From the NCBI GenBank assembly GCA_022824585.1, contig JAJDZN010000114.1:1-52868 (forward strand): a stretch of 52,868 bases of DNA, written 5' to 3'. A program made the translations under genes and the position numbers. This DNA is from Bryobacterales bacterium (lineage in GTDB: Bacteria; Acidobacteriota; Terriglobia; Bryobacterales; UBA6623). Below are positions 10,249-35,436 of the stretch, piece after piece. The notes below the pieces were generated by a model, which did no database searches, had not been told where the DNA came from, and was given only the letters and a program-made list of their open reading frames with translations. Numbering within the stretch: position 1 is the first letter of the stretch; the number at the start of each line of letters is the position of its first letter.

Positions 10249-10941
10249 ATGCAGCATTCGATCATCGTCATCGAAGACGATCGAGATCTTTGCACGCTTC
10301 TCGAGTACAACCTAGCCAGCAATGGGTACGCGGTCAAGATCCTCCACCGCCTAGACGGAGCCCTCGAAATCGTCCGGGATAGCCAACCGGATCTGATTCT
10401 TCTCGACGTGATGCTGCCTGACGGCGATGGCTTCGAGTTCTGTCGTCAGCTGCGCATCCGCCAGGCCACGGTCGATATTCCGGTCCTCTTTCTCACTGCC
10501 CGGAGCCAAGAGGTTGACCGGGTGCTCGGTCTTGAGATCGGCGGTGATGATTACATCACTAAGCCGTTCAGCCCGCGCGAGTTGTTGGCCCGGATCAAGG
10601 CGCACTTGCGCCGGGGCAGTGACCGAACACAGCAGCGGTCCATGAAGGCTCAAGGCCTGAACATTGACTATCCGGCACGACAGGCGAGCCTGGCGGGCAC
10701 GCCGTTGGAACTCACCGCGACGGAATTCGCCTTACTTGGGTTCCTAGCCGAACACCCCGGCAAGGCATACACTCGCGAGCAGTTGATCGCGCGCGTGTGG
10801 GACGGCCGTTCGCACATCACGCCTCGCAACATCGACGTGCACGTGCGGCGCCTCCGCGAACAGATCGAAGACAATCCCAAACACCCGAAGTGGATTCAGA
10901 CGGTGCGAGGGTTCGGATATCGCTTCGACATCCCCTCATGA
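10249..10941 (+). CDS. OmpR/PhoB-family response regulator
   Basis: A 230-residue DNA-binding regulator. The receiver domain (1-120) has the acidic pocket Glu9/Asp10/Asp11, phospho-acceptor Asp53 in LLDVMLPDGDG, Thr83 and Lys105 (YITKPFSPREL). The winged-helix effector domain (about 130-230) includes LTATEFALLGFLAEHPGKAY, REQLIARVWDG and VDVHVRRLR-like and TVRGFGYRF signatures of the PhoB/OmpR group. Its stop overlaps the kinase start by ATGA, so the two are translationally coupled and form one two-component system. PhoB-like identity is suggested by the partner kinase, but no pst or phoU gene lies nearby. Confidence 0.93.
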   Translation: MQHSIIVIEDDRDLCTLLEYNLASNGYAVKILHRLDGALEIVRDSQPDLILLDVMLPDGDGFEFCRQLRIRQATVDIPVLFLTARSQEVDRVLGLEIGGDDYITKPFSPRELLARIKAHLRRGSDRTQQRSMKAQGLNIDYPARQASLAGTPLELTATEFALLGFLAEHPGKAYTREQLIARVWDGRSHITPRNIDVHVRRLREQIEDNPKHPKWIQTVRGFGYRFDIPS

Positions 10942-12746
10942 CCGCTCGCATCTTCCTCAAGCTGGGCCTGGTCACGATCCTGCCGCTGTTGATCACGGCC
11001 ATCGCCGTGCTGCTGTCGGTCACTCGAATCACAATCGCCAACCTCGAGAGCGGCCTCGAGACCAGCCTGTCGGAAAAGGCGCGGCTGGTAGAGACCACGC
11101 TCGAGGGCCTCTCCCCCGGCGAGTACCAGCCTGTGGCCCACGACTTGGCACAACGCGCGCAGGCCCGCGTTACGATCATCGACGCGTCGGGGACTGTCTT
11201 GGCGGACTCAGAAGCCGATCCGCTACAGATGGAAAACCACGCCACAAGGCCTGAATTCGTCGAGTCGCTGGCAGGCACGACCTCTGTCAGCCGACGCTTT
11301 AGCAGCACGGTCGGGATGGACTTCCTCTATGTGGCGGTGCCCATGGCTGGCGGAGGTGCGGCGCGGCTCGCATTGCCTCTGGAAGAGGTGAACGCGCTCG
11401 CCGGGTCCAACCGCAGGAGCATCGGGCTCGTCATTCTCTTTATCGTTGCCCCTCTGGTGCTGGCCACGGCGTGGGTGGCGCGCCGGATCTCGTCCCAGAT
11501 GTCAGGAATCGTGTCGCTGTCCAATGCGATCGCGGACGGCGACTTCGAAATTGACAAGTCGTTCCCCGAACGGGGCAACCTGCGCGAACTCAACGACTTG
11601 GCGGACAGCCTACGCACCACTGCGGGCAAGCTGCGAACAAGTTTCCATCAGCTTCAGGAGGAGCGCTCGCGCTTCGTGGCCGCCGTGAACGGCATTGGAG
11701 CGGGGATTCTGGTCGCAGATCGCAGGTGTCACCTCGTGCTGCACAACCCGGCGATCGAGATGATGTTTCCGGAAGAAGATCTGTCGACACAGGCCCCGCT
11801 CAACGCATGGAAGAACAAGAACGTCCCAGCAATCTTCAACTATGCCATCGATCAGGGCAAATCGTGCACCGCCGAGCTTTCAGTGGAGGCACCCATGCGC
11901 CGGTCGTGGCGAGTGTCGTGCGCCCCGATCATGAGCCGCAAGGGCAAGATCCAAGCTGTCGCGGCGGTCTTCCATGACATCACCGAACTCGAACGGGTAG
12001 ACCAAATGCGGCGCGACTTCGTCATCAACGTGTCGCATGAGCTGCGAACGCCGCTGGCATCAATCACCGGATACGCGGAGACGCTGTTGGATGGCGCGAT
12101 CCACGACAAGCAGAACAACGAGCGCTTCGTAAGGATCCTCTGGCAGAACGCGCAGAGACTGACCCAGCTCACCTCCGATCTCATGACGCTGTCGCAGATC
12201 GAGGTCAAGGCACGAGAATTCGAATTCGTGCAGCACTCCGTGGCTGACATCCTGCGCCTGGCTGCCGATGGCATAGGGCCAGTGTTGGCACCAAAGTCGC
12301 TGCAACTTACGGTAGACCCGATCGAGGCCGACCTCGAGATCCGCTGCGACATCAGCGCGGTGCAGCAAATCCTATCGAACCTGCTGGACAACGCCGCCAA
12401 GTACACGCCCGCGGGCGGCAGCATAACCTTGGGGGTCCAATCCGGCCAGAGATCGCTGAACCTCTATGTGAAGGACACGGGCATCGGCATCCCGAAAGAG
12501 CACGTGCCCAGGCTGTTCGAGCGCTTCTATCGAGTGGACAAGGCCCGTTCGCGAGAGCTGGGCGGCACCGGGCTTGGCCTGGCGATCGTGAAACACCTCG
12601 TGCAAGCTCACGGCGGAAGCGTCTGGGTTGAGAGCGAACCCGGCACGGGTTCTACGTTCTGGTTCTCCCTGCCCTTCGAGCAGGCGACCACACCGCTCGA
12701 ACCGGTGATCGCCGAAGCGGACCAGCTTCCGCTGCCGATCCAATGA
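10938..12746 (+). CDS. PhoR-like sensor histidine kinase with HAMP and PAS
   Basis: A 602-residue membrane kinase. TM1 is about residues 8-28, then a periplasmic sensor region of about 130 residues, TM2 about 161-181, HAMP (about 183-235), a PAS domain (about 240-350, VAAVNGIGAGILVADRRC), and HisKA with phospho-accepting His367 in NVSHELRTPLASI. The HATPase_c domain has NLLDNAAKYTP (N box), DTGIGIP (513-519) and GGTGLGLAIV (542-551). The start at 10938 overlaps the regulator's stop (ATGA), and an earlier in-frame ATG would lie inside that gene. The order TM-sensor-TM-HAMP-PAS-HisKA-HATPase matches Gram-positive-type PhoR/ResE/WalK kinases. The signal is unknown, and phosphate is only one option. 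Confidence 0.93.
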   Translation: MTARIFLKLGLVTILPLLITAIAVLLSVTRITIANLESGLETSLSEKARLVETTLEGLSPGEYQPVAHDLAQRAQARVTIIDASGTVLADSEADPLQMENHATRPEFVESLAGTTSVSRRFSSTVGMDFLYVAVPMAGGGAARLALPLEEVNALAGSNRRSIGLVILFIVAPLVLATAWVARRISSQMSGIVSLSNAIADGDFEIDKSFPERGNLRELNDLADSLRTTAGKLRTSFHQLQEERSRFVAAVNGIGAGILVADRRCHLVLHNPAIEMMFPEEDLSTQAPLNAWKNKNVPAIFNYAIDQGKSCTAELSVEAPMRRSWRVSCAPIMSRKGKIQAVAAVFHDITELERVDQMRRDFVINVSHELRTPLASITGYAETLLDGAIHDKQNNERFVRILWQNAQRLTQLTSDLMTLSQIEVKAREFEFVQHSVADILRLAADGIGPVLAPKSLQLTVDPIEADLEIRCDISAVQQILSNLLDNAAKYTPAGGSITLGVQSGQRSLNLYVKDTGIGIPKEHVPRLFERFYRVDKARSRELGGTGLGLAIVKHLVQAHGGSVWVESEPGTGSTFWFSLPFEQATTPLEPVIAEADQLPLPIQ

Positions 12747-12964: not shown

Positions 12965-13495
12965 TTACACGTGCTCTTCGTGCGTGCAGCCCGGGAACTC
13001 ATCCACGGCGGTGTTCCCTTGGTAGCCGAGGTCTTGGTGAATGCCGATCTCGGAAGTGTAATAGCCGTCAATGGTCATCCGCTTCAACTGACCGAAGAAG
13101 CGCTCGGCCGCGGTCCGGGGATCGTCTTCGTTTCGGGCCATTTCAGCCACGATCGCGTCCTGCTGAGCGGCGTCGCAGTCCGAGAAATCGCGCCCGAAGC
13201 GCTCCCGCGCCTGCTCTGACACCGCCTCGAGTCCAGACTTCCAGCTCGCCTGAAGTTCGCTCGAGCCGGCGGCGACCATGACGTCGATGTATCTGGCAAC
13301 CTTGGCGGCCCGCGCTCCCGGCGAATGGTCATCGCTGGGCAAGATCAGTTCGCCCAGAGCGTCCACCAGGTCCAGTTGCGAGGCCGAGAAGAACTCCGGC
13401 TTGTAGCCGCCGGACCCGCAGCCGAGCTGCACCAGCCCGCCTGTCGCGGGCAGGACGCCCGCTGCCACTAGCTTGAGGATTGTCCTGCGCTCCAT
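12965..13495 (-). CDS. Gluconate 2-dehydrogenase subunit 3-family protein (Tat), small subunit of GMC dehydrogenase
   Basis: A 176-residue small subunit. A twin-arginine leader (ERRTILKLVAAGVLPATGG) is followed by FFSASQLDLVDALGELILPSDDHSPGA, the hallmark of the gluconate 2-dehydrogenase subunit 3 family, then KVARYIDVMVA, RFFGQLKRMTIDGYYTSEIGI and LGYQGN. Members chaperone and export a GMC-type FAD catalytic subunit through the Tat pathway and stay bound to it. It starts 7 nt after the stop of the GMC gene. The ATG at 13495 is chosen over 13516 because the GGGGGTGA spanning that stop forms a good ribosome site. The GMC subunit has no Tat signal of its own, so this protein probably carries it across. 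Confidence 0.88.
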   Translation of the reverse strand: MERRTILKLVAAGVLPATGGLVQLGCGSGGYKPEFFSASQLDLVDALGELILPSDDHSPGARAAKVARYIDVMVAAGSSELQASWKSGLEAVSEQARERFGRDFSDCDAAQQDAIVAEMARNEDDPRTAAERFFGQLKRMTIDGYYTSEIGIHQDLGYQGNTAVDEFPGCTHEEHV

Positions 13496-13502
13496 CTTGT
13501 GC

Positions 13503-15104
13503 TCACCCCCATGCATTGCGCTTGAACCCCTCGACGATCCCGTCAGCGGTGCGCCACGAAAGCGCGATGTTGGTCAGAGTGGGATTCTTCTCCGGATACT
13601 GCGGGAACACGGATGCGTCCGCCACGAACAAGTTCGGCAGGTCGTGCGATCGACCGTCAGTGCCGACGACAGAGGTCTTGGGGTCGTTGCCCATTCGCGT
13701 CGTGCCGACCCAGTGATTGAGGTCAATCACCAGATCGTCCACGCTGACGTCGCCAGGAGTCTCGATGATTTCGCCGTCCCCGGCGCGAATGATCTCCTCG
13801 CACCGCTCCACCATGTCCTGGGCCATCGCGACGTCGGAATCGTCGTAATGGAGATGGACGCGGGGCAGCGGCATGCCATACTCATCGCGCCGATCAGGGT
13901 CTAGGTCCACGAACTTGTTCGACGAGATCAGGGTCGTCCCCTGCATGTTCATCCCGGCGTGGCCGATGTTCCACTCGCGCAGCTTTGTCTTCAGGGCGCT
14001 GCCGTAGCCCGGCGCGGTGCGGATCGCCCTGCGGTGCGAGGTGACTCCCGCGCCGCACTGCACCTGGTAGGTGCCCTCGAACTTCCGGCTGGGTTCGTCC
14101 CAGTACAGCCCGGTCAGCAGGGAGTGGTAGTAGCTCGTGCCGTCATCGTTCGAAGCGTCGCGGCCAAGGATCTGCGGGAAGAAGCCGCGCACCGTGACGC
14201 CGAAGTGGCTGGTGAGGTTCCTGCCCACTTGCCCGCTGGAGTTGCACAGGTCGGAGATCAGCAGCAGGCGGGCAGTCTCGACAGCGCTGCACGACAGCAC
14301 CACGACCTTGGCGTCCAGCTCGCGAGCCGTTCCATCAGCGGACTTGTACTCGATCCCGGTCGCCTGCCCGCCCTCGCCTGAAACCCTGACCCTGGTCACC
14401 ATCGCGTCGGTGAAGATCGTCAGGTTGCCTGTCTCCTCGGCCAAGGCGATCGGCGTGTTGACAGAGGTGTACTTGGCCTCCACCGCGCAGCCGGAGCAGT
14501 GTCCGCAGTAGTGACACTTCTGCCGGCGCTTCCATTCCGGCTTGGCGGGCGTCTCGGTCAGCATAGCCTTGCGCTGGGCGACGAACGCCATCTTCGCGCC
14601 GCGCTCCCGCAGGCGCTCGACTCCGAGACGGAGGCGCTCCTCGCCGCAGCGCATCGGCACGGGCTTGAGGAATTCGCCGTCAGGCATGTTGGACAGACCG
14701 TCACGGTTTCCGTAGACGCCCATGAGCAGCTCGGCCCGGCTGTAGTACGGAGCAACCTCGTCGTAGGAAAGCGGCCAAGACTCGAAATCTTTCGGTCCGA
14801 AGCGCAACGAGTGTCCAGCCCAGCAGATCGAACGACCGCCGAGCGCGCGAATCTGGCCGTGGCCAGGCCGGTCTCCAACGGGGGTGAAATGCCCGCGCAA
14901 GAAATTGTCGCTCCAGAAGTTGGGAGCGCGCCGGTCGCGGTACTCGTAGGGCCAGTGGTGCCCTTGGTAATCGATCCCAGCGGTGAATCGCGGCCCTGCC
15001 TCGACCAGTGCTATCTTAAGGCCCGCTGCGGCGAGGGCATAGGTAGCAATCCCTCCCCCGGGTCCACTGCCGACGACAATCGCGTCGTACTGCTCTTCCG
15101 CCAC
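13503..15104 (-). CDS. GMC-family FAD sugar dehydrogenase, large subunit (glucoside 3-dehydrogenase-like)
   Basis: A 533-residue oxidoreductase. The FAD fold starts at once (YDAIVVGSGPGGGIA, GxGxxG 12-17), followed by GGRSICWAGHSLRF and the C-terminal catalytic block NHWVGTTRMGNDP (His) and NPTLTNIALSWR. A Cys cluster CHYCGHCSGC (Cys197/200/203/206, C-x2-C-x2-C-x2-C) is typical of bacterial glucose/glucoside dehydrogenases with a small subunit, and in some of these binds an Fe-S cluster. The start is GTG with a strong GGGGAGGTG ribosome site. It is co-transcribed with the Tat small subunit and divergent from a DUF1080-ThuA gene, so C3 oxidation of a glycoside to a 3-keto sugar is the likely reaction (inference). 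Electrons must pass to an unseen cytochrome c or other carrier. Confidence 0.88.
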   Translation of the reverse strand: MAEEQYDAIVVGSGPGGGIATYALAAAGLKIALVEAGPRFTAGIDYQGHHWPYEYRDRRAPNFWSDNFLRGHFTPVGDRPGHGQIRALGGRSICWAGHSLRFGPKDFESWPLSYDEVAPYYSRAELLMGVYGNRDGLSNMPDGEFLKPVPMRCGEERLRLGVERLRERGAKMAFVAQRKAMLTETPAKPEWKRRQKCHYCGHCSGCAVEAKYTSVNTPIALAEETGNLTIFTDAMVTRVRVSGEGGQATGIEYKSADGTARELDAKVVVLSCSAVETARLLLISDLCNSSGQVGRNLTSHFGVTVRGFFPQILGRDASNDDGTSYYHSLLTGLYWDEPSRKFEGTYQVQCGAGVTSHRRAIRTAPGYGSALKTKLREWNIGHAGMNMQGTTLISSNKFVDLDPDRRDEYGMPLPRVHLHYDDSDVAMAQDMVERCEEIIRAGDGEIIETPGDVSVDDLVIDLNHWVGTTRMGNDPKTSVVGTDGRSHDLPNLFVADASVFPQYPEKNPTLTNIALSWRTADGIVEGFKRNAWG

Positions 15105-15382
15105 TTACCACACCTCCCCAGAGCGGGCTCGGCCCGCGCCAGTGCCTGGTCCTACAGCCGTTCCGTCGCCTCGACAGATCCGCTGGACTCAGTGTTCCAC
15201 ATGTCACACGCTCTTGCTGCGGACCTCGAGAGGCTCCGAGTTTCGGTCCGCCGTCTTCGCCCCGCCTTCGATTCGCCGCCGATGGCAGACACGGAAAACG
15301 GACAGACCCTCACGGCGCTGCCGAGCATCGTCAAGCTATCATACGGGAGTTCGCGCCCACCGCGAACAGCAGGTTCACGATC
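15105..15382. promoter_or_regulatory. Divergent control region of the keto-sugar locus
   Basis: This 278-base region drives the dehydrogenase genes leftward and the DUF1080-ThuA gene rightward. On the plus strand GCTATCAT (TATCAT 15337-15342) is a probable -10. The leader then contains GTTCGCG-CCCAC-CGCGAAC (15349-15367), a 7-bp perfect hairpin ending 15 nt before the ATG at 15383. A strong ribosome site for the GMC gene lies at the left edge. No operator could be assigned. Confidence 0.5.
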
Positions 15383-16960
15383 ATGTCCCTTCGACCAGTC
15401 CTCCTTGTTGCGGCCAGCTTGGCGGCGGCTACCGTACTATCCGCAGCCAAGCCTGCCGGTCGCTTTGTCCCAATCTTTGACGGGGTTTCCCTGAAGGGGT
15501 GGGACGGCAACCCGAAACTCTGGGCGGTAGAGGACGGAGTGATCGTGGGGCGCACGAGCGCCGAGGATCCGATCCCCGCGAACTCCTTCCTGATCTGGCG
15601 AGAGGGCGAAGTGGACGACTTCGAGCTCAAGTTCGAATACATGATCGATGGAGGCAACTCGGGCGTGCAGTACCGGGGCTTCGAGAAACCCAAGGAATGG
15701 GGGCCGCACATCCTGGGCGGTTTGCAGGCAGACTTCGAGGCAGGAGAGCGGCACTCAGGAGGCCTGTACGGCGAACGCTCGCGGAGAATCCTCGCCCGGC
15801 GCGGCGAGAAGGTGGTCGTGGGTGCGGACGGAAAGCCGCAGGTGGTCGGCAGCGTCGGCGATCCGGTCGAGCTACAAAGCAAGATCGACCTCGACGGCTG
15901 GAACAGCTTTCACATCGTCGCTCGCGGAAACCGCTACATCCACAAGATCAACGGGCACGTCATGGTGGACGTGACCGACAACGATCCGAACGCGCCAACC
16001 TCCGGCTTGGTGGGCCTACAGATCCATCGCGGGCCGCCCATGACGATCAAGTTCCGCAACATCCAGCTCAAGCGCCTGCCGATGACCGCCGGGACCAAGA
16101 AGGTCGTCTTCGTAGGCGGGGTGAAGAGCCACGGGTACGGGTCGCACGAGCACACGGCCGGGATCAAGTTACTGATGGATGCCTTGAACAGGAACTTCCC
16201 GCAGATTCACGCAACCGCCTACTTCGACGGCCATCCGGGTGACCCCACGGCGCTCGACAATGCGGACGCGGTGGTCCTGTACAGCAACGGCGGCTTGCGC
16301 CATCCGTGGTTGGGGGCGCTGCGCTCGGTCGATCAACTGGCACAGCGCAACGGCGGAGTCGGAGCCATCCACTTCGCGGTGGAACTGCCCCAAGGCGAGC
16401 CGGGCCAGAAGTTCCTAGACTGGACTGGCGGGTACTTTGAACGCTGGTGGTCGGTCAACCCTCACTGGACCATCAAGTCGCCGAGCCTGGCAGTCGGACA
16501 TCCGATCACCAAGGGCGTCAGTCCGTTCGAGATCAACGACGAGTGGTACTTCCACATCCGCTTCCGGGCGGGCATGCACGGGGTGACGCCGATCCTACAG
16601 GCAGTGCCGCCCAAGGAATCCATGTCGCGCCCCGACGGTCCCGCATCGGGAAATCCGTATGCCCGGGCGGCGGTGGCCAGAGGCGACCTGCAGACTCTGA
16701 TGTGGGCCAGCGAGCGGCCGGGCGGCGGCCGCGGCTTTGGCTTCACCGGAGGGCACGTGCATTGGAACTGGGCGCACCCGGACTATCGCAAGCTGGTGTT
16801 GAACGCCATTGCGTGGATCGCCGGAGCCGAAGTGCCGAAGAACGGGATCGAGTCTGGCCCGTACAAGATGGCCGACATGCTCGCCAACCAAGACTACGAA
16901 CCGTGGGGCCGGTACGACCAAGCCGAAGTCGAACAGATGGTCGGCGCTTGGGCCAAGTAA
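15383..16960 (+). CDS. DUF1080 (3-keto-disaccharide hydrolase) fused to ThuA-like domain, secreted
   Basis: A 525-residue exported fusion protein. The Sec signal is MSLRPVLLVAASLAAATVLSA. Residues about 28-232 are a DUF1080/3-keto-disaccharide hydrolase domain, a concanavalin-like fold (FVPIFDGVSLKGWDGNPKLW, FELKFEYMIDGGNSGVQYRG, PTSGLVGLQIHRGPPMTIKF, FRNIQLKRL). Residues about 238-500 are a ThuA-like domain (trehalose-utilisation, flavodoxin/amidotransferase-like: VKSHGYGSHEHTAGIKLL, DADAVVLYSNGG-like strand, GGRGFGFTGGHVHWNW). DUF1080 proteins cleave glycosides after C3 oxidation, and ThuA homologues act in the same 3-keto pathway. Having both in one chain, next to a GMC dehydrogenase, argues for channelled turnover in the periplasm (inference). 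Confidence 0.88.
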   Translation: MSLRPVLLVAASLAAATVLSAAKPAGRFVPIFDGVSLKGWDGNPKLWAVEDGVIVGRTSAEDPIPANSFLIWREGEVDDFELKFEYMIDGGNSGVQYRGFEKPKEWGPHILGGLQADFEAGERHSGGLYGERSRRILARRGEKVVVGADGKPQVVGSVGDPVELQSKIDLDGWNSFHIVARGNRYIHKINGHVMVDVTDNDPNAPTSGLVGLQIHRGPPMTIKFRNIQLKRLPMTAGTKKVVFVGGVKSHGYGSHEHTAGIKLLMDALNRNFPQIHATAYFDGHPGDPTALDNADAVVLYSNGGLRHPWLGALRSVDQLAQRNGGVGAIHFAVELPQGEPGQKFLDWTGGYFERWWSVNPHWTIKSPSLAVGHPITKGVSPFEINDEWYFHIRFRAGMHGVTPILQAVPPKESMSRPDGPASGNPYARAAVARGDLQTLMWASERPGGGRGFGFTGGHVHWNWAHPDYRKLVLNAIAWIAGAEVPKNGIESGPYKMADMLANQDYEPWGRYDQAEVEQMVGAWAK

Positions 16961-17111: not shown

Positions 17112-20100
17112 TCACTGTACCGGGATCGTGACCGAGTTGCTGGCGCTGCCGTCGACCGATACGGTGACCTCTGTCGCGCCCGCCGATACGCCGGTTGGGA
17201 TGACGAAATCTATCTTGGTAATGCCAACCGCTCCCGGAATCGTTCCAGAGTAGGCGACCGATGCCTCTCTGCCGCCTACGCTGACAACCGGACGGTGCAG
17301 GGTGGACAGCCTCGAAGTGGTCGACCTGCCGGACCGCTGAGGTGTCGAGATCGGCCCGGTTCCGGTCATGTAGAGCGTCACAGTCTGCCCCGCCCTGGCC
17401 GGCGCGCTGGCGGTGACGTAGCTACCGTCTGCATGAGCAGCGGACGCCAGCTCGCCGCCGTCGGTCTCGTAGCTGTAGATTCCCGGGGCAACGCCAGCCA
17501 GGTTGACGACGACCGGCTCTGACTTCCAGACAAAGCCATAGCGATCCATCACACGAACCTTGGCTTGCGCCGAGGCGAGGCCGGCCAGTTCCCAAGGAAC
17601 CTGAATCTGGACGAGATCCGAAGCGACGCTGAAGACAGGCGCCGCGACGCTGATTTCCGAGTCGGGCCGGTCGAAGCTGACACTGACCGCCTTGAGAGCG
17701 ATCGGGGGCGCTCCCCCTGGTGCCTGCCCGGCGAATTCTGCCAGCGCCGCCCCGGAGATAACGGCGACCGACCCCGGCGCGACCGGGCCATCGGCGAGGA
17801 GGCTTGCGGCATTCAGCACCCCTTCCACTTGTGGGAGGTGAACATCTGCGAAGAGGTCGAAGCGCAGGTCCACATCTTCGACTGTTGCGACCGCGATTAC
17901 ATGCGCATCCGATGGATCGCCAAATCCGAGCTCGGCAATCGCAAGGCCGGACAAGCTCGTGAACGCGTCGTAATTGACCAGATGGCCACTGCTCTCGCGG
18001 AATCGCCAGTTCGCTACCCTGCCCCGTATGGGTGCTCCGTAGCGGTCTACGAATTTTCCAAGCACCCAAAGGTGCGTGTGCACGTCGGCGACGCCGCGGT
18101 AGACCGATGAACCGATGGCAAAGGCATCCTCGGGCTGGTTATCGCCGACCACGTACAGGTACGGCACGCGCAGCTCGGCGTCGCTGCCCTGGCGCGATAC
18201 CCGGAGATGGCCCTCGTACGATCCCGCGGCAGGCATCGCTCCCTCTAGGGCGACACGTAGCGTCGTCTGCTGGTCCGGCTGGAGCTGAAACGTCGTTTCC
18301 GCGGATCCGTCCACCCTCACTTGCGCTGTCGCGTCCGCATCGCGCCGCACAACCTCGACGCTGTACTGCTGTGGCACCGAAGTGCGATTGGTGATCACGA
18401 CATCGCGCGACGCGGGGAAGGTCTCGGCCGTGAAGCGTCCGAAGCCGATGGTTGGCGGGACGACGGTGGCGATCGGGTCGAAAGCGGACTCGAAACTCAG
18501 CAGGCCCGAGCCAACCGAGCCGACGCGGGCAACCTCGTCGTTTTCCCGGACAGCCGTGCTGGCAGTATTGATCAGGGCAGAGGCGACCTCCCGCGCGGTC
18601 CAGTCCGGATGCAACTGCCAGACAAGCGCCGCAGCGCCGCTGACCACGGCGGCGGAGAAGCTCGTTCCCTGCACCTGCTTGTAGCCGCCCCGCGTGATTC
18701 CCGGGGTCCGGCCACCGATTGCGAAGACTGCTGCGCCGGGAGCAGCGATATCGGGCTTCAGATTCAGCCCAGGAGTCGGCCCTCTCGAGCTGAACGGCGC
18801 CACTTGGGTCGAATCTATCCGCCGAGTCGCCCGGGCGGCATCGAGCGTCACTGCCAGCGACTGCTCAGCCGGAGCAGAGCCGATGCTAGAGGCAAGCGCT
18901 CCGCCATCCTCGGCAGAGATGAAGTATGCCGGGATGTCGGTGTCTTCAAGACCGCCCATGTGCAACAGATCCCCGGTCGGATCGCTGTGGAAGACAATCA
19001 CGCCGGCGGCACCCGCTGCATCGGCGGCTTCCACCTTGTCGACAGCCCAGCAGCCGCCGAATTCAACTACTACGATTCGATCCGCAAGCGCCCCGGGCGA
19101 GTACGGAGCGCAACCTTGCCCGTCGCCGAACTGCTCGGCGAGCACAGCGGGGGCAGTCAGCAGCGATCCCGGGCTTGGTCCCGTGCCGGACAGGGCTGGG
19201 AAGGAAGCGCCCGCGGCTCGCACCCGCTGCTCGAAGCGCCTTGAATTGGAGGTTGCGGCCACCGAGATCACGTCCGGTGCCGATCCGGGAGACGACACCG
19301 TGTTGCGGGCCGGGTGATCCTGACCGCCGGCCTGGCCATCGTTGCCCGCCGCCGCCACCACCACGCGCCCGAAATGCGCCACAGCGCTTTGTGCAGCCAA
19401 AGCGACCAAATCGCAAGCTATATGGGGAGCTTCAGAGCAGCCTGCTCCGAACGTCTCCCAAGGATGCATCGCCACCCGTCCGACACTAAGGTTCAGCACG
19501 TCCATGTCATCGTTGACAGCGTCGTCAATCGCGGCGATCACTGCCTGTGAGCTTGGCTTTGGACTGACCCCCGGAGTGCCACTCACCTTGTATACGCCCA
19601 GGTATGCCTTCGGGGCGATCCCTTGGATCAGGCCTGCCGGCGTGTTAATGCGCCTTCCCGCTGCAATCATGGCTGTCGTCGTTCCGTGCCCCCTGAAATC
19701 CACCGGCGTCAGGTCATCCGGGCTCGAGGTCTCTGGGTCCCCGGAATTCTGCAGATGCACGTAGCTGCGCACTGCCAACACCTTGCTGTTGGTGTAATCA
19801 AGAAACTCTGCCGCGGCCCTGGGGTAGCCTTCCACGGAAGCCAGAGTGGGGTCTATGAAGGCTGGATGGTTGAAGTCCAACCCCGAATCGATGATGGCTA
19901 TCTTGATTCCCGCGCCGGTGGCCGTAGTGCCATCGGGCCTAGCTCGCGCTGCGCGGAGCCTCAAAACATCGCTGAGGTTGTCCAGCGCGAAGTCCAGATC
20001 GCGGCTCGGCTCTAGCCTCAGCACCCCTGCGATTTCGCCGAGCGCTTCCGTCTGTCGCGCGCTGGCGCGGATGAATATCGCGTTCAGCACGTTCTGCACC

Positions 20101-20378
20101 GCCCCGATGACCTCGGCCCCGCCGGCTTCCAAGGCCTCGATGACGGGCTCTTGGGCAGTTGCCACGGCGCGCGCCTCGGCGGAGAAATCGCTCGGCGCGA
20201 CGCGCTGGCCAGGGCGCAGGTCGATTCCGCGCCGCGCTAGCAACCGCTCGCCCGAGGCCGGCGAGTCGAGCACAACCGTGTAGTTCGCAACCCGATTCGA
20301 TTGGGCCGTTGCCGACGGGGCCAGGGCGATCGTCGCCAGAATCGCGGCCCCACACGACGCTAATCGCCGCCACCACAT
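17112..20378 (-). CDS. Secreted subtilisin-family (S8) protease with PA insert and TIGR03437-like C-terminal domain
   Basis: A 1088-residue secreted serine protease. A signal peptide (MWWRRLASCGAAILATIALA) precedes a propeptide-like region (RVANYTVVLDSP). The S8 catalytic domain has Asp164 (AIIDSGLDFNHP), His231 (DFRGHGTTTAMIAAG) and Ser573 (VQGTSFSAAVVSGAAAL). A protease-associated insert lies at about 390-515. An Ig-like segment (DVVITNRTSVPQQYSV) and a transthyretin/big-like region follow. The last 220 residues (VEGVLNAASLLADGPVAPGS; VNLAGVAPGIYSYETDGG) match the domain known from many Solibacter secreted proteins. The ATG at 20378 is preferred over an in-frame GTG 39 nt upstream because a -10 box (TAGACT) ends 10 nt before it and lies inside the longer version. 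Confidence 0.9.
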   Translation of the reverse strand: MWWRRLASCGAAILATIALAPSATAQSNRVANYTVVLDSPASGERLLARRGIDLRPGQRVAPSDFSAEARAVATAQEPVIEALEAGGAEVIGAVQNVLNAIFIRASARQTEALGEIAGVLRLEPSRDLDFALDNLSDVLRLRAARARPDGTTATGAGIKIAIIDSGLDFNHPAFIDPTLASVEGYPRAAAEFLDYTNSKVLAVRSYVHLQNSGDPETSSPDDLTPVDFRGHGTTTAMIAAGRRINTPAGLIQGIAPKAYLGVYKVSGTPGVSPKPSSQAVIAAIDDAVNDDMDVLNLSVGRVAMHPWETFGAGCSEAPHIACDLVALAAQSAVAHFGRVVVAAAGNDGQAGGQDHPARNTVSSPGSAPDVISVAATSNSRRFEQRVRAAGASFPALSGTGPSPGSLLTAPAVLAEQFGDGQGCAPYSPGALADRIVVVEFGGCWAVDKVEAADAAGAAGVIVFHSDPTGDLLHMGGLEDTDIPAYFISAEDGGALASSIGSAPAEQSLAVTLDAARATRRIDSTQVAPFSSRGPTPGLNLKPDIAAPGAAVFAIGGRTPGITRGGYKQVQGTSFSAAVVSGAAALVWQLHPDWTAREVASALINTASTAVRENDEVARVGSVGSGLLSFESAFDPIATVVPPTIGFGRFTAETFPASRDVVITNRTSVPQQYSVEVVRRDADATAQVRVDGSAETTFQLQPDQQTTLRVALEGAMPAAGSYEGHLRVSRQGSDAELRVPYLYVVGDNQPEDAFAIGSSVYRGVADVHTHLWVLGKFVDRYGAPIRGRVANWRFRESSGHLVNYDAFTSLSGLAIAELGFGDPSDAHVIAVATVEDVDLRFDLFADVHLPQVEGVLNAASLLADGPVAPGSVAVISGAALAEFAGQAPGGAPPIALKAVSVSFDRPDSEISVAAPVFSVASDLVQIQVPWELAGLASAQAKVRVMDRYGFVWKSEPVVVNLAGVAPGIYSYETDGGELASAAHADGSYVTASAPARAGQTVTLYMTGTGPISTPQRSGRSTTSRLSTLHRPVVSVGGREASVAYSGTIPGAVGITKIDFVIPTGVSAGATEVTVSVDGSASNSVTIPVQ

Positions 20379-20388
20379 TGGTATGCTC

Positions 20389-20394
20389 AGTCTA
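20389..20394 (-). promoter_or_regulatory. -10 box TAGACT before the protease start
   Basis: On the minus strand CGCTAGACT is followed by 10 nt and the ATG at 20378. This fixes the likely start codon and implies a leader of only a few bases, as at other genes of the window. Confidence 0.45.
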
Positions 20395-20801
20395 GCGCGG
20401 ATATCTCGCAAAGACACGAGAATGGGGTGTGAATTTGTGATAACATCTTTGTAATCATAAAATTAGGACCTGTCGAGATCACCCTCCACCCAGACACGCT
20501 GTACCGCAAACGATCTCGCCAATCAGGGCGCCCGCAAAGTGCGCGCCTAAACGGATCCGATACGACGAAGCAAATCCGCACGCCCTGCGGGCGATAAATT
20601 CCTCACGCAATCTTCACGGACCAGCCTAGAGTTTTCCGACCAGATCAGGCGTGGCTCGGAGCATGGACCGCGCGGTTGAGCGGAGCGCTTATCCTGGCCC
20701 GTCCAAAGCACGATCCCTGCCGGCTCCATCGCAGCTCCGCTGGCACTGCATCGCCTAGCTGTGAAGAACACAGACGCTCCGACGTGTCCGACGGCCGAGC
20801 T
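20395..20801 (-). other. Intergenic region between protease and DUF6351 genes, AT-rich patch
   Basis: About 400 bases without a credible gene on either strand. A conspicuous AT-rich patch at 20431-20465 (TTTGTGATAACATCTTTGTA) interrupts otherwise GC-rich DNA and may hold upstream promoter or regulator sites for the protease gene. No clear terminator for the DUF6351 gene was seen. Confidence 0.4.
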
Positions 20802-22874
20802 TCAATACCGAATCCAGGTCCGTGCTAGGGAAACTTGACCGATTCCCGGCTTGGAGAAATCGCACACACCTCCAGGAAAGACAGCCCCCAATCGGTCCAA
20901 CTGCTCCGACGTGAGCGCAGGCCCGTAGTCCGCTGGATCGAGCGGCTTCAATTGGCACTTCAGGATGTCGCCCTCAAGCGGGGCCCCGGCTGCGATTCTG
21001 GGATCGCCGCTCGGCGGGTAGAGTTCGCCGCAGGGGCCGCTATCGCCTCGCGCCGCATCGTCCAAGAGCCGCTCTCCTTCGGCCGACCAGCAGGCATCGC
21101 TCAAATCGGCAGGCCGGCTGCGAGAGATCACGGCAATCGGCTCATCCCCGGATTCGTCCGCGGCCACCGAATCCAGCCACTGATCCATGAGTCGGGCCAC
21201 GTCCAAGCGTCGCGGGGGATTCGTCAGGATGACACGGTTGGCGGCGCTACCGTGTGCCCGCTGCAGTCGCGCGCCCAGCACGAACGTCCGAACACGGTCG
21301 TGAATGTTCCCGGTCGGATCCGAGAACCTGCGCGTGTCGATGATCGGAATCGAGCCCAGAGACCCGCCGCCCGAATTCACGCGCCCGGTCTGATAGACCA
21401 CTTTCAAGACATCCGTGTCCGCGATCGTGCGTTCGGACACGAGGTTTGCGTCGTCGTCGAAACCGCCGATCCCCTCGTTGAGCTCGATGAACTGCTCGAT
21501 GTCTATCAGACCGTCGTTCAAGGCCTTCAGACCGTATTGAACGCCCACATTGTCGAGTGCCCTGCGGGCCAGGCCGGTCGAATCGTCGCGTCCGAGAAGG
21601 TTGACCAAATTGTCGTACAGGCCGCAGCGAACACCATCCGGCCTCCGATCGGGGTGATAGATCAGCTCCTTGGGAACACCCGGCTGGCAACTGGCCGGCT
21701 GAATCATGGACGGTGTATACGATCGCATCCAACTCTCGCAAGTCGCCCATGTCGCAAATCCTGATACCGCCTTCTTCTGAACGTCGGTCCAATCGTGCGC
21801 GCTGTTCTCGATGGCCCGTGCGAGCAGCGAGCAATCCGTGATCGGCGGAGCAAGCGTCACCGTGTCCGGGTAGCTGGCACCCGGGATGATGCCATCCAAG
21901 AGGCCGGGGTAGTTCTGGGCGATCAGGTGCTGTTGCATCGAGCCGCCCGATCCGCCGACTCCGATGGTGTGAACGGGAACTCCGAAGCTCTCGATGAAAT
22001 GCTCCTTGACCATCATCGCCGTCTCGGCTGAAATGACGTCGTTGCAGTTGTTGCCAAATACATTGAGCGATGACATCGCCACCGCGTATCCGCTCGCAAC
22101 CGACGTCGCATCCTGCAAAGTGGAGCGGATCTGGCCCTGACGATACCCTGCGCGGCAGCCCCCGCCGAACCGGAACACGAGGCGGCCGTTCCAGCTCGGG
22201 GCGGTACTCCATGGGGCGGGGAGATCGTCCGCCGGATCGTGTAGGAACGCAATCTCGTAAATCGCTCGATTTATCGTGCCCCTCTCAACTCGAACGATGA
22301 AATCCTGTTCATGCCCCTCCGTGGTCGTCGTTCGGGCAATATCGGACGGGCGTGGCACGGACAGGTCAAGGGGCTTGAACCCCGGAGGGATTCCGGCCCT
22401 TCCAGTTCCCCGCTGCTGCGGTTCTACGCTGTCTGTGGATCTGTAGTAGTACGAACTCCTCGTCTCGACGCTGCAATCGGCGTCAGACGGCGGCCCCAAT
22501 CCAGCTCGTTCGGTCGCGCAAACGAAGGGTTCCTGGTGTGGTCCGGAGAACACGGGGCCAGTGCGAGGGTGATTGATCAACTCAAGGCTCGCGGACCGCT
22601 CTCCGGCCCCTACGGTGAGCGTGTTCTTGCCCATGTTCAGTTCGGACAGCCGCCCAACCAAGCGAGAGGGGTCCTCACCGCTCCGAAACGCCGATGTGAC
22701 GTCGCGACCGTCCAGTTCGACGTGCAACGAGCCGGCGCTGACGCCCGCGATTTCTACGAGCGCATCGCCTCCGGTAACCATGTCCGGGGGACCCGACAGG
22801 ACGGAAACATCAAGTCGCTCCTCGGCACTGCCAGTCGCTAGTCCGAAGCAAAGGATCGTGACCGCCAGTCGCAT
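20802..22874 (-). CDS. DUF6351 family secreted protein, probable alpha/beta hydrolase
   Basis: A 690-residue exported protein with a short signal peptide (MRLAVTILCFGLATGSAEE). The N-terminal beta-sandwich part has LSGPPDMVTGGDALVEI and LVGRLSELNMGKNTLTV, then ELINHPRTGPVFSGPHQEPFVC, all typical of DUF6351. The central part reads like an alpha/beta hydrolase: WNGRLVFRFGGGCRAGY, then the nucleophile-elbow candidate GVGGSGGSMQQHL and a large substrate lid. Chemistry has not been established for the family to my knowledge. The ATG at 22874 is preceded by GGGGGAAG. It lies 68 bp after the stop of the next gene on this strand, so the two may share a transcript. Confidence 0.78.
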   Translation of the reverse strand: MRLAVTILCFGLATGSAEERLDVSVLSGPPDMVTGGDALVEIAGVSAGSLHVELDGRDVTSAFRSGEDPSRLVGRLSELNMGKNTLTVGAGERSASLELINHPRTGPVFSGPHQEPFVCATERAGLGPPSDADCSVETRSSYYYRSTDSVEPQQRGTGRAGIPPGFKPLDLSVPRPSDIARTTTTEGHEQDFIVRVERGTINRAIYEIAFLHDPADDLPAPWSTAPSWNGRLVFRFGGGCRAGYRQGQIRSTLQDATSVASGYAVAMSSLNVFGNNCNDVISAETAMMVKEHFIESFGVPVHTIGVGGSGGSMQQHLIAQNYPGLLDGIIPGASYPDTVTLAPPITDCSLLARAIENSAHDWTDVQKKAVSGFATWATCESWMRSYTPSMIQPASCQPGVPKELIYHPDRRPDGVRCGLYDNLVNLLGRDDSTGLARRALDNVGVQYGLKALNDGLIDIEQFIELNEGIGGFDDDANLVSERTIADTDVLKVVYQTGRVNSGGGSLGSIPIIDTRRFSDPTGNIHDRVRTFVLGARLQRAHGSAANRVILTNPPRRLDVARLMDQWLDSVAADESGDEPIAVISRSRPADLSDACWSAEGERLLDDAARGDSGPCGELYPPSGDPRIAAGAPLEGDILKCQLKPLDPADYGPALTSEQLDRLGAVFPGGVCDFSKPGIGQVSLARTWIRY

Positions 22875-22942
22875 CACTGCTTCCCCCCACGCGTCAAAAA
22901 GATCACCACATTGCGATTTGCCAGTCGCTCCGCGGCTCGAGT

Positions 22943-23998
22943 CTAATCGCCCCCCTTCTTGCCAAGCAGTTCCTCTTCTAGGCTCCGCGCCCCTCGAAGA
23001 ATCCCGCCGAAAGAGTAGTTCGCCTCGTGGCAGGCGTATTCGTACACGCGGTTTCCGGTCGCAGGCCACACGTATTCCCCGCTCCACGGCGCGGTCCAGA
23101 CGCTCGGGTCCTCGACACGGAAGCGATAGCGCAGAGTCTGCCCGTCCAGCCGAGTGAACCATTCGGTCACCCGCAGGTCACGCGATGCACCTGACAGCGA
23201 TGGGCTGTCGTTGAAGTTCGTGGTCTCCACAACCAGCGTGTCCCCTTCCCAATGACCGATCGAATCGCCGAGCCAGCTCCTCACGTCATCTGGAGCGTGC
23301 TCGGCGCTCATGCGGATGATGCGCACGTCGTGAACCATTTCGACCAAGATCATCACGTGATCTTCGGTCTGCACGATTCGCTTCACGTTGTTGTACGCGA
23401 CCGGCAGCATCGGCGGCCCGGCCGTCGAGCCGAACCCGAGCAGGCAGCGTTCGGCCAGCGGCCTGATTTCCGGATCGTCGTAAGGCCCTTGCTCCAGACC
23501 CTCTTCGACCCACCAAGCGACGCCGGTGTTCGTACGCGATAGCTCGGCCCGCTCCGCCGCGCGCTGCTTTGCCGCAGCAGTCATGGGCGGCTTGCGGCCG
23601 TTCTTGGGATCGGTGATGATCGAGGTCCGCCAAGTGCCGTCCAGCTTGAATCCGCCACTGCCCCTGTCCAGCCAGAACGAGTTGTAGCCGCCTACGTTTC
23701 CCGCCGATCCCGGCGATCCGTCCCCGCCATCGGGAGGGGCGCCGCGCTCGGGATCGGACGGCGCGTTCCGCTCTGCCCTCCGCTCCAACTCGCGATCGAC
23801 GACCGCCACCGCCTCCTCATGGGTCAGCGTGAGCCGCTCGCCGTATTCTTCGGGGCGCTCCAGCGGTGTCAGCGTAGCTATGTCATACGTCCCGGACAGG
23901 TCTGGCTTGCCGGATGGAGTCCGCGGGATGTCCGCGGCCACGGCAAGCGTCCATCCCAGCAGCAAAGCGCTCAGTCCCAAAGTGATTCGATGCGTCAT
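22943..23998 (-). CDS. Secreted protein of unknown function ('PSGKPDLSG' type)
   Basis: A 351-residue exported protein I cannot assign to a named family. A signal peptide (MTHRITLGLSALLLGWTLAVA) is followed by IPRTPSGKPDLSGTYDIATLTPLER, a start common in secreted proteins of Acidobacteria and some Proteobacteria, whose role is unknown to me. Later parts resemble the same group: RCLLGFGSTAGPPMLP, VQTEDHVMILVEMVHDVRII, WLGDSIGHWEGDTLVVETTNF and the closing FGGILRGARSLEEELL. The ATG at 23998 has a good ribosome site (GGGGAAGATCT). It precedes the DUF6351 gene by 68 bp, suggesting a joint function, and is divergent from the symporter gene. Confidence 0.8.
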   Translation of the reverse strand: MTHRITLGLSALLLGWTLAVAADIPRTPSGKPDLSGTYDIATLTPLERPEEYGERLTLTHEEAVAVVDRELERRAERNAPSDPERGAPPDGGDGSPGSAGNVGGYNSFWLDRGSGGFKLDGTWRTSIITDPKNGRKPPMTAAAKQRAAERAELSRTNTGVAWWVEEGLEQGPYDDPEIRPLAERCLLGFGSTAGPPMLPVAYNNVKRIVQTEDHVMILVEMVHDVRIIRMSAEHAPDDVRSWLGDSIGHWEGDTLVVETTNFNDSPSLSGASRDLRVTEWFTRLDGQTLRYRFRVEDPSVWTAPWSGEYVWPATGNRVYEYACHEANYSFGGILRGARSLEEELLGKKGGD

Positions 23999-24235
23999 AG
24001 ATCTTCCCCGATCTCCAGTACCCTCGCGCACACTTCCCATCGCGCGCCCAGCTCCGAAACGGCAGAGCTTCGATCTCATGCAGGCCAGGCCGGCACCGGC
24101 GAGTGCCCTGCCAAGAGTCTACGCGAAATGGGGGCGTCCCGCAGGGACAACTCCAGAAGCCGCAGTCTTCAGCGGACCTGCCGGCCAGCAGTCGACGCTG
24201 GGTCCGGCGACCATGCTGGCGTATATCCTGATGGG

Positions 24236-25612
24236 GTGGCAGGGATCGAAAACGCTCTGGCGGCATTCGCCGCCTTCGCGTGGGGGCCCGTAGTACTGTT
24301 TCTGCTGATCGGGGGCGGGTGCTACTTCTTTCTCTATTCCCGGCTGCTTCCGTTCTGGCACCTCAAGCACGCACTCAAGATTCTGCTTGGGCGCTACGAC
24401 TCTCCTTCCGCCACTGGTCAAGTTTCGCATTTTCAGGCACTTAGCAGTGCCCTCGCGGGCACGATCGGGATGGCGAACATCGCCGGCGTCGCAGTCGCGA
24501 TCCAAACAGGCGGCCCGGGCGCGATCTTCTGGATGTGGGTCTGTGCCTTCGTCGGAATCGCCACCAAGTTCTTCACCTGCTCGCTGTCGATCCAATACCG
24601 AGGCCCTGACAGCCGCGGCGAAATCCAAGGCGGACCGATGTATTTCATCGTGTACGGCCTCGGGAAGCGTTGGAAGCCGCTCGCCGTGTTTTTCTCGTTC
24701 TGCGCATTGTGCGGCACGCTGCCGATGTTCCAGGTCAACCAGCTCGTCCGCATCGCCCGGGAGACCGTGGCCGTGCCGCTCGGCTGGGTCTCTGCATCGT
24801 CCGACGCCTGGGTCTTCAACCTCACGCTCGGTATCGTCGTGGCAATTGCGGCGGGCGCCGTCCAGATCGGTGGGATCAAGCGCGTGGGGCTGGTTGCGGC
24901 CAAGATGGTCCCGGCCATGGTCGCGCTCTACGTTGCCAGCGCTGCCGTGATCCTGGCCACCAACCTGTCATCCCTGCCCGGGGCCCTAGCCATGATCTTC
25001 AAGGACGCGTTCACCGGAGAGGCCGTCGCCGGGGGAGCCGTCTGGGGCGTGATCGTGACCGGCGTGCGCCGGGCCGCCTTCTCGAACGAAGCCGGGGTCG
25101 GGTCCGAGGCGCTCGCGCACGGCGCTGCCAAGACCGACGAGCCCGTCCGAGAGGGCCTAGTGGCGATGCTTGGCCCGATCATCGACACATTGATCATCTG
25201 CACCTCGACGGCCCTGATCATCCTCAGCACGGGCACGTGGACGAACTTCGAGGCCGAGGGCGTGTCGGTGACGCTCGCATCGTTTGAGCAGGTTCTGCCC
25301 GGCGTTGGAACCTACGTGCTGTTCACCTGCGCGATCTTCTTCGGCTTTTCAACCACCCTGTCGTGCGGCTACTACGGCGAGAAGTCTCTAGGGTTCTTGG
25401 TCGGGGCAGAGCGTCAGTTCCTGTACCGCTACATTTACGTGGCATCGATCCTGATCTCGTCCGTGACATCGGTCACGGCAGTGCTCGACTTCATCGATGG
25501 CATGTACGGCCTGATGTCCATCCCCACCATGACCTCGTCGCTGATTCTCGCGCCTCTTGTAATGAAGGAAGCCCGCAGGTACTTCAGGGAAATGGCGGCC
25601 GGGACGGGCTAG
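24236..25612 (+). CDS. AGCS-family sodium:alanine/amino-acid symporter
   Basis: A 458-residue inner-membrane transporter with about 11 hydrophobic helices, importing small amino acids (Ala, Gly) with Na+. The family signature is complete in LAGTIGMANIAGVAVAIQ and TGGPGAIFWMWVCAFVGIATKF (about 73-112), with GGPMYFI and FSNEAGVGSEALAHGAAKTD later. I chose the GTG at 24236, giving the family's usual beginning (AGIENALAAFAAFAWGPVVL). Upstream sequence in this frame runs into the control region of the divergent gene and is unlike the family. A TATATC box ends 8 nt before this GTG. The gene is followed after 51 nt by a sulfatase. Confidence 0.92.
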   Translation: MAGIENALAAFAAFAWGPVVLFLLIGGGCYFFLYSRLLPFWHLKHALKILLGRYDSPSATGQVSHFQALSSALAGTIGMANIAGVAVAIQTGGPGAIFWMWVCAFVGIATKFFTCSLSIQYRGPDSRGEIQGGPMYFIVYGLGKRWKPLAVFFSFCALCGTLPMFQVNQLVRIARETVAVPLGWVSASSDAWVFNLTLGIVVAIAAGAVQIGGIKRVGLVAAKMVPAMVALYVASAAVILATNLSSLPGALAMIFKDAFTGEAVAGGAVWGVIVTGVRRAAFSNEAGVGSEALAHGAAKTDEPVREGLVAMLGPIIDTLIICTSTALIILSTGTWTNFEAEGVSVTLASFEQVLPGVGTYVLFTCAIFFGFSTTLSCGYYGEKSLGFLVGAERQFLYRYIYVASILISSVTSVTAVLDFIDGMYGLMSIPTMTSSLILAPLVMKEARRYFREMAAGTG

Positions 25613-25650
25613 TCCCGCATCCGGCCAAGAGGCTTCACGCGCCGGCTGCC

Positions 25651-25656
25651 TACAAT
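25651..25656 (+). promoter_or_regulatory. -10 box TACAAT before the sulfatase at 25664
   Basis: TGCCTACAAT ends 7 nt before the ATG at 25664, so the predicted start of transcription coincides with the start codon. An in-frame ATG at 25655 lies inside the box and is an unlikely start. Confidence 0.5.
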
Positions 25657-25663
25657 GGGCTCG

Positions 25664-32228: not shown

Positions 32229-32235
32229 CCCGATT

Positions 32236-32241
32236 AGTCTA
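32236..32241 (-). promoter_or_regulatory. -10 box TAGACT before the GMC gene
   Basis: On the minus strand TTGCTAGACT is followed by AATCGGG and the ATG at 32228 (7 nt). It lies in the 34-nt gap after the receptor gene, so the GMC gene may have its own leaderless transcript as well as read-through from upstream. Confidence 0.5.
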
Positions 32242-32262
32242 GCAATCGGCCCCTTTCCGGCT

Positions 32263-35200: not shown

Positions 35201-35436
35201 ATGCCCGTTCCGCTGTGGGTCACGATGACTGCCGCTCGCGGAACCACCCGACCCTGCGGATCCGTAACGGTTCCCTGCAGGGTCGCATCGGACTGCCCGC
35301 AGAGCCGCGGCATAACGGTTGCTGGCAACGCCAGGCTCGCCAAAGCCAGCCACAGCGCCGCGGAGGTGCGGCGAGCGCGAGCGGCCAACGGAACCACGCC
35401 GTCGCGGCCGGGGCCGACATCCCGGACTCGCGTCAC
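32263..35436 (-). CDS. TonB-dependent receptor, Oar-like, with carboxypeptidase-regulatory domain
   Basis: A 1057-residue outer-membrane receptor. After a signal peptide (ALWLALASLALPATV) comes a CarboxypepD_reg domain (ATLQGTVTDPQGRVVPRAAV, YSVSVSRRGFRLVEAVGILL), then a plug (LPLNGRDLFELSALEPGATL, FQLDGVYVNDAAS) and a long beta-barrel ending in LALRWEF with terminal Phe. This type is greatly expanded in Acidobacteria and probably imports oligosaccharides or peptides. I chose the GTG at 35436, whose GTGA overlaps the stop of the preceding lipoprotein gene and which is preceded by GAGG. A GTG at 35457 is the alternative. The GMC gene follows directly. Confidence 0.9.
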   Translation of the reverse strand: MTRVRDVGPGRDGVVPLAARARRTSAALWLALASLALPATVMPRLCGQSDATLQGTVTDPQGRVVPRAAVIVTHSGTGISREVTTSGDGRYVIAALHPGSYSVSVSRRGFRLVEAVGILLTSGRIAEYDVRLELGMTQDAIEVEGDLSLVSTNAADWGGLVPERNLRDLPLNGRDLFELSALEPGATLPASARVGLAQGIGRQISVLGSRPNQNSFQLDGVYVNDAASASPASATGNVLGLEMVQEVHLVTSPYSAEYGRTAGGVFTAVSRSGENRFHGSAYEYLRNNSLDARNFFDSPAAGAPPLRRNHFGALLGGPVVLDRAFFLLNYEGLRERRARTARPAVPTPEARLGHLPGEDIPVAAEVRPYLDLYPLPNGRDFGDGTAASIRQLNDRVDEIYLSGKLDLVLDSATQLAARYTFDDAAARTPDPMDLWVFGLDSRDDFLHTQLKRVHSPAMLSTWRAAFSRVDNFENSSTAVPDSLAFVNGQPMGSITVNGLSNMGGFQARARPRRFILESYQFGTSLVRTTGKSTLRMGAGYDRVHFDQRSDLSAVGSYTFDSLALLLQARPRIAEVMQPGSDTVRGWRYNQYFGYLQHEFRVFDIFSVSMGVRYESVSTPTEVNGKIAVLRDFVNDSQTTLGGPLWRNPSKDNFAPRISVAFDPVGDARTVARGGFGIFYDQLGSRELTIAGVRTPPLFNRILVFGRPRFPDILQAAEGRNPSTSMDGVDYNLNQPYVARWQASMERQLSPSTVIRAGYSGARGIHLFGQLISVNSPIPEVQSDGRYFFPQGSPYVNPAFSRIGLRRTQFNSFYQAITFSLQSRLAKRLSMRGKYTWGRSIDEASNHTFNDFVASDQVPTVWDYRANRGLSDFDQEHVVAGNISLELWRGKGSPAAAVFGGWQLHGIMQVLSGTPFAPRVGFDRARLRPGFGDVGQRPDLVAGRAASDIVLGDPSRYFDPTAFALPEAGYLGTLGRGTLRGPGIFTMDIALHKALVSTERQSLKLRAEAFNVTNHPNFQVPSGRALFTRSGGRIGSAGRITSTSTSSRQVQLALRWEF

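Follow-up and report, generated by a model that had tools for sequence, protein, structure and literature searches.

A lactose 3-dehydrogenase, LacABC, and a periplasmic DUF1080 protein have been proposed as one sugar-cleaving route in Caulobacter crescentus (Price 2022, PMC9007349). Cleavage of 3-keto-glycosides through elimination, followed by hydration of 2-hydroxy-3-keto-glucal, has been described for other protein families (PMC10628242), and a cytochrome c as the electron acceptor of a flavin adenine dinucleotide (FAD)-dependent glucoside 3-dehydrogenase (PMC9915066). Here, we analyse, using domain profiles, structure prediction, structure comparison and genome surveys, a DUF1080-ThuA fusion protein and the GMC-family dehydrogenase pair encoded divergently beside it, in a 52,868-nucleotide (nt) stretch of a Bryobacterales genome (assembly GCA_022824585.1, contig JAJDZN010000114.1; hereafter the window). 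Secreted and built of two domains, the fusion is probably an enzyme of the 3-keto-glycoside route that would draw on lineage-specific oxidoreductases for the oxidation step, with the GMC pair as a neighbour that is not obligate.

The locus resembles the LacABC system, as proposed here, in that a periplasmic sugar 3-dehydrogenase would lie close to a DUF1080 protein that has a putative signal peptide, with the same division of labour. In contrast, the Caulobacter protein has a single DUF1080 domain, and ThuA goes unmentioned in that paper. The likeness is to the published description of LacABC and not to LacA or LacC sequences; a plasmid search for a LacA reference returned 705 records, all below 60% identity and none named. 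No cytochrome c was found among the ten window proteins scanned. The arrangement in the window is a clade-limited variant of this already proposed route. We found no open-licence paper naming both DUF1080 and ThuA (subscription papers were not covered); the fusion and its longer form are already visible in public genomes, and we claim no first sighting.

A secreted protein with a DUF1080 and a ThuA half

The fusion protein (15383-16960, plus strand; 525 residues) begins with a signal peptide, MSLRPVLLVAASLAAATVLSAA, identified by eye, and carries two Pfam domains. PF06439 (3keto-disac_hyd, DUF1080) spans residues 28-230 (E 1.1e-34; 120.5 bits, cut-off 26.8; 2-187 of the 187 model positions), and PF06283 (ThuA) spans residues 250-479 (E 3.4e-15; 57.3 bits, cut-off 33.4; 9-209 of 209). 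A first-pass annotation, made from the sequence alone, had described a GMC subunit with a cysteine cluster, a small subunit with a twin-arginine translocation (Tat) leader 7 nt downstream and this divergent secreted protein. All three reading frames of 12965-16960 are present at the positions it gave, Pfam agrees with their families, and the export signals are recognisable by eye. The ThuA half does match ThuA, in profile and in fold, and the domain assignments support the further claim that the chain joins two families of the 3-keto route. The NCBIfam scan assigned no family to the fusion and none to the small subunit.

Starting from an alignment of 37 rows, the fusion was modelled with a mean predicted local distance difference test score (pLDDT) of 94.6 and a predicted template modelling score (pTM) of 0.93, values from which a fixed packing of its two domains is predicted. 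Foldseek against the PDB places 4jqt (BT3469, titled putative glycosyl hydrolase) at rank 1, followed by BT2157 and its relatives, and ranks 1-18 consist of entries whose titles read putative glycosyl or sugar hydrolase (DUF1080 being named in one) or hydratase/eliminase; the first half is thus predicted to have a DUF1080-type fold. Among these matches are 8tda and 8v31, titled 3-keto-2-hydroxy-glucal-hydratase, and 8rr2 and 9fbe, titled 3-keto-glycoside eliminase/hydratase (for 8tda and 8rr2/9fbe, E 2e-10 to 2e-9, probability 1.00). BT2157 and relatives (8tda, 8rr2 and 9fbe, by title) match the first half in sequence as well as in fold, at 18-19% identity, as against 27% for the N-terminal DUF1080 domain of BT3469. 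The second half is predicted to have a ThuA-like fold: it matches 4jqs, 4pxy and 1t0b with probability 1.00 and template modelling (TM) scores by target of 0.64-0.67, at 14-17% identity, while sequence alone reaches an E-value of 0.034 at best against 1t0b. These three proteins are 241-252 residues long, hence without a DUF1080 half, and their titles give no function.

Many residues are invariant in both halves across the 37 rows (in alignment numbering, to which 21 is added for the full protein). The DUF1080 half keeps the polar residues N71, S72, Q75, R77, Q94, D96, R119 and H194, and the ThuA half is rich in invariant histidines (H229, H234, H286, H309, H352, H437 and H439).

The source assembly (6.18 Mb in 341 contigs, 91.8% complete, 6.4% contaminated) also encodes the two domains separately. 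Unfused DUF1080 and ThuA genes lie within 5 kb of each other in three pairs besides the fusion (contigs C15, C241 and C200), where 0.6 are expected (a simple Poisson estimate gives P about 0.02, with less real weight because the C15 and C241 pairs look like duplicates). The genes adjoin at L125:5663-7368 and L126:7734-9454 and are one gene apart at L127:5868-9371.

Redox modules fused to relatives in other phyla

A pattern-seeded scan of genome contigs, taking the best 80 of 83 relatives, gave 79 distinct loci, and in 56 of them both domains share one reading frame: 10 from Bryobacterales/Terriglobia, whose genomes also occur in the survey of the order described below, and 46 from elsewhere, mostly Planctomycetota and Verrucomicrobiota by record title. 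These relatives in other phyla are 46-55% identical to the window protein. In 23 of the 46 the frame extends into a DUF7133/TIGR02604 propeller module, and in 13 of those 23 into a cytochrome c as well (for instance L011:9818-15034; there are 22 further such loci). We examined ten long proteins. In the nine scanned with Pfam, DUF1080, ThuA, DUF7133 and HEAT occur in all (with HEAT under the cut-off in L052), NPCBM in eight, L030 being the exception, and Cytochrom_C above cut-off in seven (not in L012 or L052); in the four scanned with NCBIfam, including L015 from outside the Pfam set, TIGR02604 is above cut-off throughout and the haem-binding domain TIGR02603 is present in two. The planctomycete and verrucomicrobial proteins, of the form DUF1080-ThuA-(NPCBM)-TIGR02604-HEAT-(cytochrome c), thus share their first two domains with the window protein, in the same order and at about 50% identity, and add a haem/dehydrogenase-like module where the window protein stops after ThuA.

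The same type of module, TIGR02604-HEAT-cytochrome c, makes up Lac161_ORF7, a protein from a verrucomicrobial cosmid that cleaved lactose when purified (PMC5342196). The link between oxidation and cleavage gains support from the long in-frame chains, yet through another oxidoreductase than the GMC pair and by way of gene fusion. The 69 loci outside Bryobacterales, many of them short, yielded no GMC or subunit-3 frame in a search with a subunit-3 profile made from Bryobacterales sequences; flanks of 3 kb on either side are available for only 20 of the 46 fusion loci. The window's own genome has eight TIGR02604 matches, four above cut-off and none on the window's contig, and any of them might serve the fusion in trans. 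At C336:1922-3775 of this genome, a DUF1080 match stands about 0.4 kb from a TIGR02604 match that is below cut-off and on the opposite strand.

The GMC pair and its linkage to the fusion gene

On the minus strand, the large subunit of the GMC-family FAD dehydrogenase (13503-15104; 533 residues, GTG start) has PF00732 (GMC_oxred_N) and PF05199 (GMC_oxred_C) above cut-off, the cysteine cluster CHYCGHCSGC and the motifs NHWVGTTRMG and NPTLT. Its NCBIfam matches are all below cut-off among those listed (25 of 55 families). The gluconate 2-dehydrogenase subunit 3 family protein (12965-13495, minus strand) matches PF13618 (Gluconate_2-dh3) above cut-off, at 7e-33; its listed frame starts at an alternative upstream ATG at 13516, and the ATG at 13495, which opens a twin-arginine leader by eye (MERRTILK...), lies 7 nt after the GMC stop. 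By domain content, the two side by side are a GMC/subunit-3 sugar dehydrogenase. A 278-nt region (15105-15382) separates the divergent starts of the GMC and fusion genes.

The cysteine cluster of the window GMC is nothing special: it occurs in all 30 GMC loci examined, with a last gap of 2-3 residues. The pairing itself is stable, with a subunit-3 frame within the examined stretch in 28 of the 30 (on the opposite strand in L101). Subunit-3 proteins of the genus have a conserved cysteine after the leader (VQLGC or VQIAC, by eye) and no canonical lipobox, and from sequence a Tat lipoprotein is possible. Among solved proteins, the window GMC is closest to a glucose dehydrogenase and a fructose dehydrogenase. 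Such enzymes oxidise carbons other than C3, and the position of oxidation can therefore not be read from the GMC family; the earlier statement that GMC/subunit-3 enzymes make 3-keto-glycosides was too strong. A second GMC copy, 76-77% identical, lies elsewhere in two genomes of the linked clade described next (G027:C161:24572-26158 and G029:C186:2291-3868).

How widely is the pair found beside the fusion? We surveyed an even sample of 150 genomes of the order, taken from a larger group, at E-values up to 1e-60. The full-length fusion is present in 12 of them, namely all 11 surveyed members of the window's genus and, within the same family, G019; the remaining matches cover the ThuA half only. 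A GMC at 85% identity or more occurs in 10 of the 11 genus genomes. In six (G000, G009, G015, G017, G027 and G029) the pair adjoins the fusion divergently, with similarly short GMC-fusion spacing in the five linked genomes other than the window's. In four it lies away from the fusion, about 1.36 Mb off in the single-contig genome G005 and on another contig in G002, G007 and G011; it was not found in G035 (87% complete; best GMC match 38%), nor does it lie beside the fusion in G019. Another family of the order has GMC relatives at 58-63% identity in 11 genomes, none of which shows a full-length fusion at E 1e-60. Both trees group the six linked genomes into a single clade (support 100/99 in the fusion tree, 100/100 in the GMC tree); branches flagged as long (L025 and L016 in the fusion tree; L102, L101, L096, L095, L092 and L099 in the GMC tree) all lie outside it.

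The genes upstream of the fusion indicate how the pair may have come there. In the window a response regulator gene (OmpR type; 10249-10941, plus strand), which the genus and G019 carry upstream of the fusion in the same orientation, is followed by a histidine kinase gene (sCache-like, PAS, HisKA and HATPase domains; 10797-12746, plus strand). In the five unlinked genomes of the genus and in G019 the order is response regulator, kinase, fusion on one strand. The kinase gene adjoins the fusion gene in four of these five and in G019, with 58 (L005), 80 (L007), 80 (L008), 671 (L009) and 26 nt (G019) between kinase stop and fusion start; in the fifth (L006) a gap of 3416 nt contains a copper amine oxidase gene. 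In the linked genomes the gap is 2642-3453 nt (four measured). Tblastn searches of the kinase-fusion interval in L005-L009 and L123, at E up to 1, found no GMC or subunit-3 remnant, and we set aside the idea that the pair was once linked and later lost, a loss without trace being still conceivable. The simplest reading is that one rearrangement placed the pair between kinase and fusion, a direction that we infer. The arrangement is thus local to one clade, while the fusion itself is older and more widespread.

We also looked at the company that the pair keeps elsewhere, in 11 of the 15 genomes with a close GMC relative away from a fusion (four of the genus, seven of another family). ThuA genes within 10 kb of the pair number 0 of 11 (0.23 expected by density; the ThuA listing is complete), and DUF1080 genes 2 of 11, both in one genus (0.89 expected), the latter counted among the best listed of 297 matches and with local profiles in stretches that reach about 6-10 kb to each side of the pair. 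A general co-location of the pair with DUF1080 or ThuA is accordingly no better than chance in these genomes. Across 13 wide neighbourhoods of the pair, common neighbours were seen only among three loci of one genus (g16), the exception being outer-membrane beta-barrel genes in three of the 13 (L113, L118 and L120). ThuA genes lie 2.8 kb and 1.4 kb from a second subunit-3/GMC pair of the window's own genome; this pair is, however, flanked on one side by an oxidoreductase gene (Fer4_20, Pyr_redox_2) and on the other by an opposite-strand gene with a thioredoxin/DsbA domain, and we therefore do not regard the pair and the ThuA genes as an operon.

Other genes of the window vary in how firmly they hold their place. 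Between the fusion and a downstream symporter gene stand a subtilase gene and a tannase-like DUF6351 gene (17112-23162); the subtilase gene follows the fusion in all six linked genomes and the DUF6351 gene in some (a piece only in L002-L004; the L001 contig ends), and neither has a match beside the fusion in the unlinked genomes. Further on, genes for a sodium:alanine-type symporter and a sulfatase (23819-27040) lie on the fusion's strand, as they do in the genus where contigs reach. A second GMC gene (30516-32369) adjoins an outer-membrane beta-barrel gene (32263-35457), a placement downstream of the fusion that recurs in nine of the 11 genus genomes (partial view in G002 and G015), the other two contigs being too short. 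This second GMC gene holds its position better than the GMC gene at 13503-15104.

Proposed mechanism and alternatives

What could the two halves of the fusion do? Following the PDB titles of solved members, the DUF1080 half would most likely take a C3-oxidised sugar as its substrate and eliminate the aglycone, hydrate the resulting 2-hydroxy-3-keto-glycal or do both, and the ThuA half would most likely carry this intermediate through the neighbouring step. The oxidation would fall, in many Planctomycetota and Verrucomicrobiota, to the TIGR02604/cytochrome c module of the same reading frame, and in Bryobacterales to a separately encoded enzyme. For the window's clade, one rearrangement would have brought a Tat-exported GMC/subunit-3 dehydrogenase to its place between the kinase and fusion genes; this dehydrogenase may feed the fusion but is not its obligate partner.

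Several points tell against the fusion being such an enzyme. The nearest solved relative of its DUF1080 half is the N-terminal part of 4jqt, nearer than BT2157, and deletion of BT2157 in B. thetaiotaomicron caused no growth defect on raffinose-family sugars (PMC11501099). As described, Lac161_ORF7 has no DUF1080 or ThuA domain, and its authors take it for a new family of beta-galactosidase (PMC5342196). We found no activity data on any DUF1080-ThuA protein in the literature. The other 23 of the 46 fusion loci outside Bryobacterales show no in-frame redox module, several of their contigs being cut; a separate propeller frame accompanies three of them (L016, L033 and L039) and none was seen within the stretch in the other 20, where several contigs are short. 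Finally, the CBM66 binding module (4b1m and 4azz) also matches the DUF1080 fold, with TM scores by target of 0.72-0.75, and the annotations of DUF1080 and CBM66 overlap according to a paper on Thermogutta (PMC5673643). A DUF1080 half that only binds carbohydrate in the manner of CBM66, leaving the ThuA half as sole catalyst, would fit this match and this overlap; the eliminase/hydratase structures nevertheless outrank CBM66 by E-value in Foldseek, and the invariant polar residues of this half speak for more than binding, which makes the proposal quite improbable.

As to the pair, the first-pass annotation held that oxidation and cleavage are coupled outside the cytoplasm. The general idea stands with the LacABC proposal, while the view of GMC, subunit 3 and fusion as one conserved module does not: the order survey and the trees, with linkage in six of 11 genus genomes and a single clade, lead us to reject it, and the expected co-conservation in relatives largely fails, in G019 and in the 69 loci of other groups as well. 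That the pair is the fusion's dedicated C3-oxidase, with both transcripts co-regulated from the 278-nt region, is still suggested by its divergent position, retained across the linked clade, by the published LacABC and DUF1080 proposal (PMC9007349) and by the ThuA genes near the second pair of the own genome. We hold it unlikely, however, with the pair unlinked in four genus genomes and not found in one, close relatives of the GMC present in 11 genomes without a full-length fusion at the E-value used, ThuA absent and DUF1080 at chance level near the pair in the 11 genomes of the neighbour test, and no GMC or subunit-3 frame detected in the 69 loci, many of them short. There is close to an even chance that the two are mere neighbours, the pair serving another substrate (in free aldose or gluconate oxidation, for example) and having moved beside the fusion without functional reason. 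Its nearest solved relatives, glucose and fructose dehydrogenases, fit this account, as does the lack of a recurrent neighbour family beyond one genus, beta-barrel genes excepted, in the 13 wide neighbourhoods; other genes have also settled by the fusion, the subtilase and tannase-like genes in the linked clade and the copper amine oxidase gene in L006. Yet pair and fusion both belong to exported sugar chemistry, and the ancestor shared by the six linked genomes already had their arrangement, which has persisted since.

Our favoured reading, a secreted two-domain enzyme supplied by lineage-specific oxidoreductases, can be carried a step further, tentatively and with rather less confidence, to a DUF1080-ThuA core of redox glycosidases. 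The planctomycete chain would oxidise C3 through its TIGR02604 module and pass the electrons to its own cytochrome c, with both halves of the core eliminating and hydrating; the Bryobacterales core would use an exchangeable, separate dehydrogenase, the flavin enzyme of the window having adjoined it recently. Should the core act in this way, a family of large proteins from planctomycetes and Verrucomicrobiota that has no assigned function would consist of oxidation-elimination glycosidases whose electrons leave by haem, and not of classical hydrolases. A role for ThuA would become testable, and a mechanism would be on offer for the lactose-cleaving Lac161_ORF7. Counts of glycoside hydrolases would then underestimate sugar breakdown in Planctomycetota and Verrucomicrobiota.

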